In this document: one piece after another, positions 32,255 to 40,114 of the stretch
Layout: each line of letters opens with the position of its first letter
Numbering within the stretch: the first letter of the stretch is position 1
Assembly (NCBI GenBank): GCA_016180725.1
Contig: JACPAR010000015.1
Location: 1 to 53,719, forward strand
Source: Candidatus Levyibacteriota bacterium
GTDB lineage: Bacteria > Patescibacteriota > Microgenomatia > Levybacterales > UBA12049
Reading direction: 5' to 3'
DNA: 53,719 nt
Made by a program: the position numbers and the translations under genes
Notes under the pieces: model-generated
Seen by the model: only the letters and a program-made list of their open reading frames with translations
What the model was told of the DNA's origin: nothing
Databases searched by the model: none

Positions 32255-33511
32255 TCACCCAATAATATACAATTCCTTCACTGCTCTGGTTACTGCTGTA
32301 TATAACCATCTGCTCCAAAGCTCATCTTCCCAGTAGGCTGATGGTTCTTCAAAAAGCAAGACTCTGTCTGCTTGGGATCCTTGGGATTTATGGACAGTTA
32401 AAGCATAACCAAAATCAAACCTATCACCAATCTCTTTGTAATGAATACCTTTGACCTCGGTTAAATATTTTTCTTGATGAAATTGGTACCTGGAGATTCT
32501 ACCTTGGTATGGAATATCTTCACCATGGAATAATATCTCGGCTTCATACCAGTGTTTATCAGATGGAGTAAGTTTAATTAGTTTACCAATCATGCCATTA
32601 TAAATTGGTTTACTTAAGTTTTTGTAGTTATTCTTCAAACAAATAACCTGCTCACCAATAACTGGTTCATCTGATGAAAAATCTAGCCTACTTCTAATTT
32701 GTTGGTTAAGTTTGACCCTGGTAGCATTTCTACCACAAAGAATCAGGGTATTGTCATCAAAACTGTTAAATATCTTATCAATTATTTCCTCTGCTTCTGG
32801 GCTGTGTCTAGCAACTTTTTTAACAGTTGAGGAGAAATTTTGAAATGGAATTTTACCAGTAGTTCTGGCTAAAGTAGCCACTTGTAGAATTGGGTTATCC
32901 TGGGCATGTCTATGAATGGTTTCTAATCTAAGTTGTGGTTTATCCATTAAGCTGTAACTGTCTCCGACTGGTGGTAATTGTCCATGATCCCCAATAGCAA
33001 TGATGGAAACTCCGTATGAGCAAATATCTTGCCACATATCTTGGGTTATCATTGAAGCCTCATCAATAATTATTAAATCTGAATCAATAGCACTTACTTT
33101 TTTCCAACCAACAATATGGCCATTTTTATCAACCTTTGGTTTATACATTAAAGAATGAAGAGTTCCAATACTGTCTCCTTTGAATATAGACTTTTGCTCA
33201 ATAAGTTTACTTTTTAATACCTGGCTGGCTTTACCAGTAAAGCAGGCAAATGCAACAACAAGATTAGGTAATTGTTTTTTCAGGAGAGTCCGCAAAATTG
33301 CAGTAATAGTAGTTTTTCCTGTACCAGCATATCCACCTACTGTAATATACCCATATTTAGGATTTCTGACCCAAGAAAGTAAAGATTCTAAGACAAACTT
33401 TTGGTCAGAAGATAAATGGTCTTCTTCCTCAGTCCAAGGGTCATAGGCTTTAGTAAAAGTCTTTCTGATTTCATCAACACCGTAAGCCTTTGATTTAACA
33501 GCAGGGATCAT
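32255..33511 (-). CDS. SF1B DNA helicase (Dda/RecD2/PIF1-like)
   Basis: GGYAGTGKTTITAIL, LIIIDEASMI, IGDHGQLPPVG, ALTVHKSQGSQADRVLL, YTAVTRAVKELYIIG. Confidence 0.93.
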   Translation of the reverse strand: MIPAVKSKAYGVDEIRKTFTKAYDPWTEEEDHLSSDQKFVLESLLSWVRNPKYGYITVGGYAGTGKTTITAILRTLLKKQLPNLVVAFACFTGKASQVLKSKLIEQKSIFKGDSIGTLHSLMYKPKVDKNGHIVGWKKVSAIDSDLIIIDEASMITQDMWQDICSYGVSIIAIGDHGQLPPVGDSYSLMDKPQLRLETIHRHAQDNPILQVATLARTTGKIPFQNFSSTVKKVARHSPEAEEIIDKIFNSFDDNTLILCGRNATRVKLNQQIRSRLDFSSDEPVIGEQVICLKNNYKNLSKPIYNGMIGKLIKLTPSDKHWYEAEILFHGEDIPYQGRISRYQFHQEKYLTEVKGIHYKEIGDRFDFGYALTVHKSQGSQADRVLLFEEPSAYWEDELWSRWLYTAVTRAVKELYIIG

Positions 33512-34266
33512 GGAGAAATTATATCATCATGTTTGTCGCTAATCAGTTCCAAAAGTGGCTTTTCCCAACCAAAACAAGTCTCTCTGTTCTCTAATTGTCG
33601 AAATGTTGGTGTACATTTTGGATCAAGTTTGGTGTATTGTATGAGTACCTCAACAGTTTCCCGAATAAATTCACCAACTGTTCCGTCAGAATCATCAACA
33701 CCGCCTGAGATAAGTTTTTTATCAAGCCGCAGGAGCAAATCTACCAAAAGTTGTGTGGTCTGTTCATTTACTGGTAAATTAGACACAATAGCTGACAAAC
33801 GTTTACACCCTTCTTGCAAAGAATTTTGGTACGCAAACCAGGTGCGGGATGGGCCATTGTATCCCTTTATGTATCGCAAAGCTTCGGTAAAAGATTTTTT
33901 AATCACAGCCAATTCTTCTTTTTCTAATTTTCCTAATTTGCCGCTACAGCTTGGAGAATCTATTAGTTTCTTATCTTCATCTGTCAGTGGTTTGCCATAC
34001 ATAACCACGAAAAGAGCCAATGCTACCATATGCTTGCAAAGGGTATCACTTTGCCCCAGATAGCAGTTACAGTGACCGTAGTCGTATCGGCGTGCCTCTA
34101 CAGATACCCGATATGGCTTGGTGCCAAGTACAACCGCTGCATAAGATCTAATCCCTTCCTCAAATTGGGTTACCTTCCCGCTTTCATATAACACAACTGC
34201 TTTCTCAAACGTTGGTTGATCAGTGGCAAATTTAATTTTACTTAGATCATAGTCTGGTCGCTGCAT
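33508..34266 (-). CDS. SWIM zinc-finger protein
   Basis: HCNCYLGQSDTLCKHMVALALF (CxC...CxH); ATGA overlap with the helicase gene. Confidence 0.8.
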   Translation of the reverse strand: MQRPDYDLSKIKFATDQPTFEKAVVLYESGKVTQFEEGIRSYAAVVLGTKPYRVSVEARRYDYGHCNCYLGQSDTLCKHMVALALFVVMYGKPLTDEDKKLIDSPSCSGKLGKLEKEELAVIKKSFTEALRYIKGYNGPSRTWFAYQNSLQEGCKRLSAIVSNLPVNEQTTQLLVDLLLRLDKKLISGGVDDSDGTVGEFIRETVEVLIQYTKLDPKCTPTFRQLENRETCFGWEKPLLELISDKHDDIISP

Positions 34267-35113: not shown

Positions 35114-35406
35114 ATTTTTAAAGCAATAGAATTTATTTTAATTATGACAAATTCGCCACAGTTAAAATCCAGTTTCTCCTGCTGCTATTATAGACGTAGA
35201 CTATAACAAGCTACGCTTATTATACAGGATTTTAGATCCGTAGGATCGCAAGATTTTCTTATTCAAACTAAATCAAAATGGCTATTGCATTTGTACGATC
35301 AGTTTGGTTCAATTAAGGTAGTCATAAGTTTTGATTTTTGACATTTGAGTTTTGAATTTTTTTATATGTATGTTATGGAATATCTTCAGAAATTTAGACA
35401 AGGTAA

Positions 35407-38400
35407 GCCCGACAGCTCACAGCTCACAGCTCACAGCTCACAGCTCACAGCTCACAGCTCACAGCTCACAGCTCACAGCTCACAGCTCACAGCTCACAGC
35501 TCACACTAAAGTTTAGGCGTCAATTCCCAAAAATCAAGAGGCAAACCCTCACTGTCCTCTTAATTATTTCTTTATTAATATCTCAACTCACTTCTCTTTT
35601 TGTTCCCTCAGTTTATGCCGCAAGTTCACCTTGGAGCCAAACTAATTGGAATGGTGGGAGTGGGCAGACTGCTTGGAGTGATACAACCAAGTATTCTTCT
35701 GGCTCAAGTGTTGATGCCACTACTACTTCTGGACAAGTAACATTGACTAATACAGAAAAATTTTCTAATACAGGGTTTGAATCAAACCTGACAGGGTGGA
35801 CCGTATCAGGCACCACCAATGATTTAACTTTGCAGCCTGATGGAGCTACTGGAATTGATACCTGGATATTATCAGTTGGCACAGGTGGTAGCGCTGGGTA
35901 TCAGAATACCAATAACGGTGCGCAGAATGTTTTTCAAGTGGGTCTCACAGTATCAGGCACAGATATTGAACGTGGACTTATAAAATTAGATCTTTCTTCT
36001 ATACCCTCAACAGCGAAGGTTTCATCTGCCACTCTTTCAATATATGCTACTAGTCAAGTAGCATCTGGAAATGCTCAAACATTTTCTGTTTACAGAATGC
36101 TCCAAAGTTGGGTGGAAGGAACAGGGAATTTTAGCACTACTGGGGATGGAACCACATGGTTAACCTATAATGGTGTCAGCAATTGGCAAACAGCAGGAGG
36201 GTCAGGGTCTAACGATCGAGAGACTACTGCTATCGGTTCTAGCGCATTCGCAAGTTCTGAAACTTCTGGTGAGTTCAAGAATTTCAGCTTGACAGCAAGT
36301 GCAGTTCAAGAATGGATTGATGGAACGATGACTAATAATGGGGTTATGATTAAGAGTGAGGAAACAGGAACAAATAGATTTACATTTGCTGCAAGTGATA
36401 ACGCTACTGCTGCTAACCGGCCTAAGTTAGCAATAAGCTACTATAACTACTCACGAGATACATCCATCAAATATGGAGGAAGTAATGCTTCGGCACAAAT
36501 AATCACACCTTCAGGTGGTACTAATAATTTTCTTCAAACTGTCAATGTGGGAGATACAAATACTTACAATTTAGTTTCTTATGCTTATACAGATGGTAGT
36601 GCCATAACTTCTTCTGATGTAGAGCTTTTTTATAACGGTTCAACGATTGCAACAACATATACTTCTGTTGGTTCTGGTTGGTATAAACTTACTGGAACTT
36701 TAACAGGAGCAAATGCGTCAAGGGTTTATGGAGTTCAAGTAAAAGCAAATAAAACTGTTTATGTAGACAACTTTAGTTTGAATAATTATGCTTCTTCCGG
36801 AACTTTGACCTCATCTATTTTTGACAGCGAATTTACAGCAGGTGCAGCTTGGGGTACCCTAACTTATACGGCAACTACTCCAACTAATACAACAGTTTCA
36901 GTAAAAATGAGGACTTCTAATTCATCTTCAATGTCTGGGGCTACAGCTTTTGGTTCATGTACCGCAATAACAAGTGGTTCCGACATTTCTTCTAACACTT
37001 GCGTAGCTGATGGGCAAAGATATATTCAATATCTCCTGACATTATCGAATAGCAGTACAGAAGTTACACCAACTTTTTCAGATTTATCACTAACATTTGC
37101 AACCTATGATACTGACGCACCATCTATCTCTTTAACAGCTTTAACCCCTGACCCAAATTCTGATAATACGCCAACTCTATCGGGAACAGCTACTGACTTA
37201 ATAGGCACTGTTTCCAATGTCCAGTTTCAGATGGATGCAACTTCTGGCTCCTGGACTGCTTGTACAGCGGATGACGGCAGTTTTGATGAAGTGACAGAGA
37301 CATTTACATGTACTCCTTCTGCATTATCTGACGGTAGTCATACGATGTATGTCAGGGCTACCGACAGTAACAGCAATACGACTGCTTCGGGAAGTGAATC
37401 TTCTGACACTTTTACCATTGATGTGACAGCCCCGGCTTCTTTTGACCTGGATTCTCCTGGCCATGAGAGTTACACTACCAATGAGCGACCCACTTTTAAG
37501 TGGAAGGCAACCACCGACCCTTCGGCAGGCTCAGGGCAAGTGCCTTCAGGTTTATCCAGCTATACCCTGGAAGTAGACAATGGGGATACGGGAGACTTTA
37601 GTATTACGGGTATCCCTACCAGCAGGACTACAGATTATGACACCAATAAATATCTTGTCCATTATGATAACTTTTCAGATTCAGATTCCAGTAATAATTA
37701 CATCTCAATTTATACTAAATCACACAGTGACTGGAGTTCCTCTGAAAACTATGGCAAGTTAAAAGAAGGCTCAAGATCCTGGAAGATTAAAGCCATTGAT
37801 GCCGCAGGTAATGAAAGGTCAGAGGGCAGGACTGTGATTGTTGATTTAACAGGCCCGACATTATCCTCCCTTTCCTCATCTGGCTCGGCAGGCAGCAAAG
37901 ACGGTTATTTTCTGGTGACCAACCAAAAGCCAAGCCTAACAGGCACTATTACTGATAATTATTCTCCTGATAAGGTAGAAATCTCCATCTACAAGGAAAA
38001 CTACTTTCTGGGTGCCATCACCTCCAAAGAGCTGTTTACTTCCATTACTTATTCACTCTCCAACAGCAGTAATAATAAATCCCTCTCTTTTTCCATTCCT
38101 GTCCCTGATTCCCTGGACTTCGGCAGTTACGAAGTAAATATTAAAGGACAAGACAAAGCAGGCAATAAATCCGGCGCTTCTACCATATATTTTAAGGTTT
38201 TGACTGCCCGGCAGGCAAAAGAACTTTTGCAGGGTAAACTTTCAGAAAAAGAAAAGAAAACAATTCAGGAGAGATCACAGGTATCTCTGCCGGAATTGGA
38301 GAAAAAAGCAGTTTTAAGACGGGAAAAAGAAGCAGCGGAATTTGATAAGTTAATTACCCCATTCTCCCAAACATTCTCTGTCATCCCCAACCTGATTGGG

Positions 38401-39243
38401 AATCTATATAAATCATCTACTGCGGGACTCACGATGACAGGAAACGCCATTAGCCATGGTTTCCTCGAAGTGACAAATGGTATAGGTAAAGGTTACAACA
38501 ACCTAGCTCAAAAAGCGCCTGGGTTGGTAAAAAATACCATGTTAGCTTTAGAAAATGGAGTAAATACGGTTAGCTCAACTATCAGTAACACTAACCAAGT
38601 AGCGCTTAATACTCTTAATAAATCTCAAGGGAAGTTAGAGAATAAAATCAGCAAGAGTTCTAGAGAAACAGCACAAATTTTTAATTCTCAATTATCAAAT
38701 GTTAAAAACATAGCAGGCGGCACCACTAAAGTCATTGCGAGCGCAAGCGAAGCAATCTCTAATTCGTTGGCCAGATCGCAGGAAGAAACCCAAAAACAAA
38801 TCGCAAAAACTCACCAGAATACAAGCGATGCTATTAAGGATAAAGGTCAAAGAATAAGTAAAGGAATAAATCTTGCTTTCCGCTCTTTCCAAAAACCAGT
38901 CAATGATACAACTGGTTTCCTGGACAGAACTAAAGTATGGTTTCTAACTTTTGGATCAATAGTTATAGATCCAAATCCAACAACTATTTCTGGTGTTGCT
39001 ATTGATGAGTTAGGAAAAGATTATGCAGTTGTTTCCTGGAAAACAAACCATTATGCTTGGGGTAAAGTTAATTATGGTAAAGATTTAACTTATGGGAAAG
39101 AAGTACTTTTAACCAAAAGAGAGAAAGTCCATGTTGCCCGCTTAACAGGGCTTAAACCAGGGGAAAAATATTATTTTGAAGTAATGTCCCAGAACAAAAA
39201 TTATGCTTATGACGCCTACTATAGTTTTGAGACTAAAAAGTAG
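35407..39243 (+). CDS. Giant secreted surface protein: signal peptide, DNRLRE-like domain, Ig-like domains, helical region, C-terminal FN3-like domain
   Basis: Frame is open from 35407; KFRRQFPKIKRQTLTVLLIISLLISQLTSLFVPSVYAA is a signal peptide upstream of the ORF-track TTG start (35743); no ATG/GTG/TTG between the upstream stop (35404-35406) and the signal peptide. Confidence 0.8.
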   Translation, partial: ARQLTAHSSQLTAHSSQLTAHSSQLTAHSSQLTLKFRRQFPKIKRQTLTVLLIISLLISQLTSLFVPSVYAASSPWSQTNWNGGSGQTAWSDTTKYSSGSSVDATTTSGQVTLTNTEKFSNTGFESNLTGWTVSGTTNDLTLQPDGATGIDTWILSVGTGGSAGYQNTNNGAQNVFQVGLTVSGTDIERGLIKLDLSSIPSTAKVSSATLSIYATSQVASGNAQTFSVYRMLQSWVEGTGNFSTTGDGTTWLTYNGVSNWQTAGGSGSNDRETTAIGSSAFASSETSGEFKNFSLTASAVQEWIDGTMTNNGVMIKSEETGTNRFTFAASDNATAANRPKLAISYYNYSRDTSIKYGGSNASAQIITPSGGTNNFLQTVNVGDTNTYNLVSYAYTDGSAITSSDVELFYNGSTIATTYTSVGSGWYKLTGTLTGANASRVYGVQVKANKTVYVDNFSLNNYASSGTLTSSIFDSEFTAGAAWGTLTYTATTPTNTTVSVKMRTSNSSSMSGATAFGSCTAITSGSDISSNTCVADGQRYIQYLLTLSNSSTEVTPTFSDLSLTFATYDTDAPSISLTALTPDPNSDNTPTLSGTATDLIGTVSNVQFQMDATSGSWTACTADDGSFDEVTETFTCTPSALSDGSHTMYVRATDSNSNTTASGSESSDTFTIDVTAPASFDLDSPGHESYTTNERPTFKWKATTDPSAGSGQVPSGLSSYTLEVDNGDTGDFSITGIPTSRTTDYDTNKYLVHYDNFSDSDSSNNYISIYTKSHSDWSSSENYGKLKEGSRSWKIKAIDAAGNERSEGRTVIVDLTGPTLSSLSSSGSAGSKDGYFLVTNQKPSLTGTITDNYSPDKVEISIYKENYFLGAITSKELFTSITYSLSNSSNNKSLSFSIPVPDSLDFGSYEVNIKGQDKAGNKSGASTIYFKVLTARQAKELLQGKLSEKEKKTIQERSQVSLPELEKKAVLRREKEAAEFDKLITPFSQTFSVIPNLIGNLYKSSTAGLTMTGNAISHGFLEVTNGIGKGYNNLAQKAPGLVKNTMLALENGVNTVSSTISNTNQVALNTLNKSQGKLENKISKSSRETAQIFNSQLSNVKNIAGGTTKVIASASEAISNSLARSQEETQKQIAKTHQNTSDAIKDKGQRISKGINLAFRSFQKPVNDTTGFLDRTKVWFLTFGSIVIDPNPTTISGVAIDELGKDYAVVSWKTNHYAWGKVNYGKDLTYGKEVLLTKREKVHVARLTGLKPGEKYYFEVMSQNKNYAYDAYYSFETKK
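35414..35504. repeat. Tandem heptanucleotide repeat (AGCTCAC)x13
   Basis: 13 perfect copies over 91 bp. Confidence 0.98.
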
Positions 39244-39262: not shown

Positions 39263-40114
39263 ATGCCAAACGAATTTATACGCAATCTAAATATAAATCA
39301 AGAGAATAAGACTCCTGGAAGGTGGCCCGCTTCGACTCAGCGAGGCGAGCCAAAAGGACTCCTTCCAGGTGGCGTTGCCATGCCGGTTATCACAATCCTG
39401 GTATATTTTCTGACTAAAAATCCTTTAACTGGCAACCTAAAATTACAGTTCACGCTTTTAAGCATCATAGCTTTGTTAGTTTTTGGGTATTTTCTTAAGA
39501 AAAAAGGGCTATCTGTTATTCAAAATGTAGAATTTAATTATCTTCTAACAGTTGCTGTGCTGTTTTTGATTGCCTCCACCGGCTGGTTTTTCTCTCCCTT
39601 TTTCTTTGTTTTATACCTTTGGGCAATATTTTTGGCTTTTATCTTTTCACCTACGGCTTCCTTAGGTTTTATTATTACCCTGGTAATCCTTTTTTCTTTT
39701 AATATTGGACAGGTAGACTTAGCTTATGACTTTATGATTGTCTTATCATTACTCACCACAATCCCGTTAAGTCTATATCTTAGAAAAGAATATCTTCGGC
39801 TTAAAGAATCGGAAAAAGAAATTTTGGTACTGCAAAAACAGAAAGAAAATTTTAACAGCATAGTTGAGGAAGTGTTAGCCAATAAAATCAGCAGTATTGC
39901 AGCGAATTTAAGACAGCCGATTAATGATATTAAGCAGTTAGCTTTTAGAATGGGAGATATTAAGGAAAAACAAAAATTAGAAACTGACAGGGAAAGAATA
40001 CTTGCTTCCTCAGAAGAAGCCCTAAGGGTTCTAAAAGAATTTGAAGAACAATCAACAGGAAAGAAATTAGTAGTTAACCCCGGCTCTCCTCAGGCGGCTC
40101 CAGGAACTTCTTAA
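39263..40114 (+). CDS. Multi-TM membrane protein with C-terminal coiled/HisKA-like segment
   Basis: Six or so TM segments then LQKQKENFNSIVEEVLANKISSIAANLRQPINDIKQ. Confidence 0.6.
   Translation: MPNEFIRNLNINQENKTPGRWPASTQRGEPKGLLPGGVAMPVITILVYFLTKNPLTGNLKLQFTLLSIIALLVFGYFLKKKGLSVIQNVEFNYLLTVAVLFLIASTGWFFSPFFFVLYLWAIFLAFIFSPTASLGFIITLVILFSFNIGQVDLAYDFMIVLSLLTTIPLSLYLRKEYLRLKESEKEILVLQKQKENFNSIVEEVLANKISSIAANLRQPINDIKQLAFRMGDIKEKQKLETDRERILASSEEALRVLKEFEEQSTGKKLVVNPGSPQAAPGTS

Follow-up and report, generated by a model that had tools for sequence, protein, structure and literature searches.

In a 53,719-nucleotide stretch of DNA from a Candidatus Levyibacteriota bacterium (contig JACPAR010000015.1 of assembly GCA_016180725.1, positions 1 to 53,719; hereafter the window), a heptanucleotide tract lies between the start codons and the signal peptide of a large predicted secreted protein. 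Judged from sequence, this tract is very probably a simple-sequence contingency locus, at which slipped-strand mispairing would cause translational phase variation. Random ON/OFF switches of this type, built on repeats, are known from pathogens. CPR/Patescibacteria are thought to live attached to host cells, and to our knowledge hardly anything is known of how their surfaces vary in the face of hosts, grazers and phages. Control of a large secreted adhesin-like protein by slippage would give them a concrete and testable mechanism of such variation. An earlier note on this DNA had proposed a contingency locus, and the proposal is supported by the copy numbers of homologues, the varied non-triplet units at one position, the presence of ON and OFF states, the two-frame ATGs, purifying selection and the lack of a detectable MutS.

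A heptanucleotide tract between start codons and a signal peptide

Thirteen complete AGCTCAC units (13.0 perfect copies, 35414-35504) are contained in a perfect period-7 run of 94 bp on the forward strand (35412-35505), which obtains a Tandem Repeats Finder score of 188 compared to 59 for the next-best array of the window. Tandem-repeat and frame analysis confirmed the exact unit count of the earlier note, as well as its reading that the tract is free of stop codons in all three forward frames and encodes SSQLTAH. The tract is preceded by a leader (35366-35411, + strand) with three ATGs in two frames, both of which are open through the tract. ATG 35366 and ATG 35375 share one frame while ATG 35370 uses another, and these frames end directly past the tract, at TAA 35507 and TAG 35514, respectively, just as the note had described. 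The third leader frame, that of the signal peptide, is closed by TAA 35404. It is then open from 35407 to 39243 (1,279 codons), and its first ATG, GTG or TTG is TTG 35743, which is 3' of the signal peptide, so that with 13 units the gene is predicted to be OFF, again in line with the note. Gene callers restricted to these three start codons miss the signal peptide, and assemblies may appear OFF or broken at such genes.

The copy-number predictions of the note proved correct by frame calculation: 14 or 11 units (+1/-2) fuse ATG 35366/35375 to the signal peptide, and 15 or 12 units (+2/-1) fuse ATG 35370 to it. Two features that characterize contingency loci are found here, namely a non-triplet tract (13 x 7 bp) where the coding region begins, between the ATGs and the signal peptide, and a unit number that alternately joins and separates a start codon and the gene.

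The region 35286-35365 (+ strand), 5' of the leader, is the presumed promoter and 5' untranslated region. It holds TTGCATTTG at about 35295, similar to CTTGCATTT found 5' of the leaders of relatives, and TTGCAT is visible in the sequences of the window and of the homologous loci L016, L018, L019 and L022. The promoter role is only putative, since a consensus promoter scan gave no site in 35286-35365 or in the leader. No strong ribosome-binding site is visible 5' of the window ATGs, which counts against the proposed switch. A degenerate heptad series (TTTTGAT, TTTTGAC, ATTTGAG, TTTTGAA) is located at 35330-35359, directly 5' of the leader.

The predicted secreted protein

The signal peptide (35506-35622, + strand), identified by direct translation and by alignment with relatives, displays a basic stretch, a hydrophobic core and a cleavage motif (LKFRRQFPKIKRQTLTVLLIISLLISQLTSLFVPSVYAA). 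Together with the ASSPW motif that follows, it aligns with the relatives' counterparts, and its cleavage is predicted from the motif. The body of the protein (35623-39243, + strand), whose C-terminal half is shared by relatives, contains a Disaggr_repeat domain and an Ig-like Big_13 domain in a Pfam scan, which also gave a sub-threshold match to the purple-acid-phosphatase N-terminal domain (FN3-like) at the C terminus. The product of a contingency locus is typically a surface or host-interaction protein, and a signal peptide followed by extracellular-type domains corresponds to this; the window protein is probably located at the surface and may have an adhesive function. At about 1,245 aa after the tract it is large, not giant as first described. 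The earlier placement of the bacterium in the CPR is supported by its relatives, in the same class as the Beckwithbacteria genome CP011210, and its episymbiotic lifestyle is only presumed.

Tracts at homologous loci

A protein search of genome contigs returned eight loci in Microgenomates-type genomes, including Daviesbacteria, Blackburnbacteria, Roizmanbacteria and Beckwithbacteria, and a profile of the signal-peptide region matched 11 of 374 class genomes, the window's genome counted. Tracts of relatives from other Microgenomatia families sit at the homologous place, 5' of the same signal peptide, and follow a common design, in which ATGs (ATGTATG or ATGATATG) occupy exactly two frames that both stay open as far as the tract, and a single long open frame continues beyond it. 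L016 (Blackburnbacteria, genome G225) carries (AGCTCAC)7 behind a leader nearly identical to that of the window and is OFF. In the same genome, about 12 kb away, L018 has (ACTC)3.75, a 15-bp run, and is also OFF; L027, which belongs to another family, has (ACTC)11.75 and is ON via the second ATG. GA tracts are present in L019 from the single-contig genome CP011210 ((GA)9.5, a 19-bp run; OFF), in L022 ((GA)6.5; ON via the first ATG) and in L020/L030, where 6 GA units are followed by an assembly gap. L015 and L017 have no tract at that place and an ATG in frame. The copy number differs among homologues, with both ON and OFF states, across different species and not within one population. The OFF state is found in 4 of 6 scorable family members when one in three would be expected, an excess that is not significant because the numbers are so small. 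Within the families of G225, G123 and G143, no close relatives with other tract lengths were found.

The two heptamer loci (13 and 7 units) share one phase, which counts against switching and might be expected if the protein were translated constitutively despite the frame break, either because ribosomes undergo programmed frameshifting within the repeat or because they initiate at a near-cognate codon past the tract (ATC 35533, ATT 35563). The conserved coding region and the near-cognate codons present in frame would also suit such translation, but a fixed frameshift would break L027 and L022, each of which already has an ATG in frame. Moreover, ATT 35563 lies within the hydrophobic core, the region scanned in L018 contains no near-cognate start, and the other frames hit stop codons after the tract. 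We regard constitutive translation as improbable. An assembly artefact, in which short-read assembly miscounted a repeat number that is in reality fixed and in frame, appears a little less probable again. A 94-bp perfect repeat in a metagenome assembly of 44 contigs is miscountable, and N gaps occur at such tracts in L020/L030 and L037; yet the runs of L018 (15 bp) and L019 (19 bp, in CP011210) are too short for easy miscounting and are nevertheless OFF, and a tract of the window's kind would be unstable whatever its exact count.

Outside the class, 16 of the 17 hits (L037-L053) have no tract. At L037:1425-1496 (genome G438), 24 C residues and 48 N stand directly 5' of a related signal peptide; this is perhaps a mononucleotide version of the tract, suggestive but unusable.

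Two further observations concern individual relatives. Contig C21 of G225 (L021/L034) has a third leader copy without a tract, in which a tRNA-like stretch separates leader and signal peptide, and looks like a disrupted paralogue. In L019, AAACGGCTTCGCCGTTTT is found directly 3' of the GA tract, with a near-identical hairpin in L022, in both cases within coding sequence; this small hairpin, which T residues follow, looks like an intrinsic terminator.

Conservation of the locus and genome background of the tract

Open ATGs in exactly two frames were observed in 9/9 leaders scored, compared to 3-19% of dinucleotide-shuffled sequences, the nine leaders being not all independent and equal to perhaps three or four cases. 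Within each tract type, the leaders are 86-92% identical while the fourfold-degenerate sites are 34-40% identical. Between the window and L016, 40 of 46 leader bases and 40% of the fourfold-degenerate sites are identical, and the 80 bases 5' of the leader are poorly aligned (37 of 98 aligned columns). For L018 and L027, the 37-base leader has 34 matches, the fourfold-degenerate sites are 34% identical, and the 80 bases upstream match in 73 of 82 aligned columns, with the DNA further upstream unalignable. Leaders that are far more alike than fourfold-degenerate sites must be strongly constrained or exchanged between genomes.

Strong purifying selection acts on the coding regions, with dN/dS about 0.1 even where both members of a pair are OFF. 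dN/dS was 0.13-0.14 for the window vs L015 and vs L016 and 0.10 for L016 vs L018, both OFF; these values are approximate, with synonymous sites near saturation and poorly aligned stretches excluded. The OFF genes are therefore not dead, because genes that can never be translated would lose such conservation.

The window's genome comprises 768,608 bases in 44 contigs and is 80.5% complete. In the 552 kb sampled, no other perfect tandem run approaches the length of the AGCTCAC tract, which is also the sole tract with contingency-like anatomy; in the first 293 kb, for which all runs were listed, the next-longest has 4.7 copies. Such a lead argues that the tract is not there by chance. Period 7 (n = 29) and period 14 (n = 19) dominate the tandem repeats of this sample, other multi-base periods having at most 4 each, so the genome tends to heptads generally, although no other run in the sample comes near 13 perfect copies. 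The same period-7/14 bias of short tandem repeats is seen in G123 and G143, within genes and between them. A genome search found no other AGCTCAC arrays in the window's genome, and only 2 of 374 Microgenomatia genomes contain three or more AGCTCAC units in tandem, in each case where a gene of this family begins.

It is very unlikely that a neutral heptad expanded by chance at the start of a gene which is dead or uses another start, the repeat having no role: the bias towards periods 7 and 14 and the intergenic AGCTCAC arrays of unrelated viral contigs would agree with this, but L016, from another family, has the same heptamer in the same position, other relatives have tetramers or dimers at the homologous site, the two-frame starts were kept in every case, and the long frame is intact and conserved.

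The flanking genes have close counterparts too. The gene upstream (33508-34266) is 84% identical to one that neighbours the homologue L016 in G225, and the gene downstream (39263-40114) is 83% identical to a neighbour in L015. The two matches are to two other families and may represent conserved or transferred blocks.

Proposed mechanism and comparison with known systems

In the phase variation that we propose, slipped-strand mispairing at replication would add or remove AGCTCAC units, each unit causing a one-base frame shift. In two of the three phases, one of the two ATG frames would continue across the stop-free tract to the signal peptide, so that the protein would be made and exported (ON). 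In the third phase, which is that of the window (n = 13) and of L016 (n = 7), ribosomes from both ATG frames would stop a few codons past the tract (OFF). Since the tract precedes the signal peptide, cleavage would remove SSQLTAH as well, and one mature protein would result in all ON states. The locus would act purely as an ON/OFF switch, although the two ON phases may differ in level according to the ATG used. That slippage takes place in living populations and that translation starts at these ATGs is our inference. MutS_V was not found in the six genomes tested, the window's included, with positive controls in place. The absence of MutS fits an unstable tract and is only permissive, because MutS may be missing from the whole group.

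Translation of Haemophilus influenzae lic1A may begin at any of three codons, which lie in two frames (PMC4019658), as in the window, and in lic1A and lic2A (5'-CAAT-3') the coding region likewise has a non-triplet tract near its 5' end. They differ from the window in that their unit is a tetranucleotide and their products are lipooligosaccharide enzymes, whereas the window has a heptanucleotide 5' of the signal peptide of a secreted protein, in an unrelated phylum. The neuO gene of Escherichia coli K1 (5'-AAGACTC-3' heptads, prophage CUS-3) also has a heptanucleotide tract in its 5' coding region, where slippage switches translation. It is in phase OFF in 42 of 64 complete genomes (PMC13001214), and OFF assemblies are therefore normal for such loci. 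However, neuO is ON in one phase of three, with repeat numbers divisible by 3, when the window locus should be ON in two of three, and its repeat peptide stays in the enzyme while that of the window would be cleaved off with the signal peptide. With no acetyltransferase domain among the Pfam matches and a unit other than AAGACTC, the window gene does not belong to the neuO family, and the two loci are alike in mechanism only.

At the large adhesin genes hmw1A and hmw2A of H. influenzae, repeat units of 7, 8 or 9 bases are found in different strains (PMC2651432), which is comparable to the exchange of units among the relatives described here; these are mostly promoter repeats tuning transcription, in contrast to a tract between start codons and signal peptide. 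A Gracilibacteria BD1-5 gene with hypervariable 9-mer repeats, for which slippage was proposed (PMC6851277), is another case of repeat-based diversification of a CPR gene, but its in-frame 9-mers alter a tripeptide array and do not switch it ON or OFF. This was the sole paper on CPR repeat variation found, and no report of repeat phase variation in CPR/Patescibacteria was found by full-text searches of a library that includes few subscription journals. As far as we found, the kind of phase switch is already known and the bacterial phylum is one without an earlier report.

Similar leaders before other genes and heptads in viral contigs

(CTCA)5 is present in 2 of 374 class genomes, both times 5' of signal peptides: at L027 and in G343. 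The G343 locus is a different secreted-protein gene, in which ATGTATGCA is followed by 11 CTCA units and then the signal peptide; it is OFF. The G123 locus, a frame of 949 codons that includes an FG-GAP repeat, has a ATGATATGC leader, 7.5 GA units and a signal peptide, and is ON. The ATGATATGC leader pattern was matched in 3 of 323 genomes, each time at a gene of this kind. The arrangement is thus not confined to one protein, as the G343 and G123 genes are unrelated to that of the window. A (GA)9.5 tract in G225 (L101:19945) was dropped, as it leads to no secreted protein.

It is conceivable, although we would stop short of calling it probable, that a transferable phase-switch cassette, made of a 5' region of about 80 bp, the two-frame ATG leader and the slippage tract, circulates among Microgenomatia before the signal peptides of different secreted proteins, the unit (7, 4, 2 and perhaps 1 base) being exchanged and the two-frame logic kept. 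Were this the case, host-dependent CPR bacteria would gain a repertoire of stochastic surface switches.

No relatives of the window protein were found in viral contigs. AGCTCAC arrays occur there in eight stretches, mostly intergenic and unrelated. In short viral frames from IMG/VR, the AGCTCAC heptad is directly 3' of the ATG, from L063:6329 on and in the first 63 bases of L065, a contig that ends within its AGCTCAC tract; these heptads are possible contingency loci in phages.
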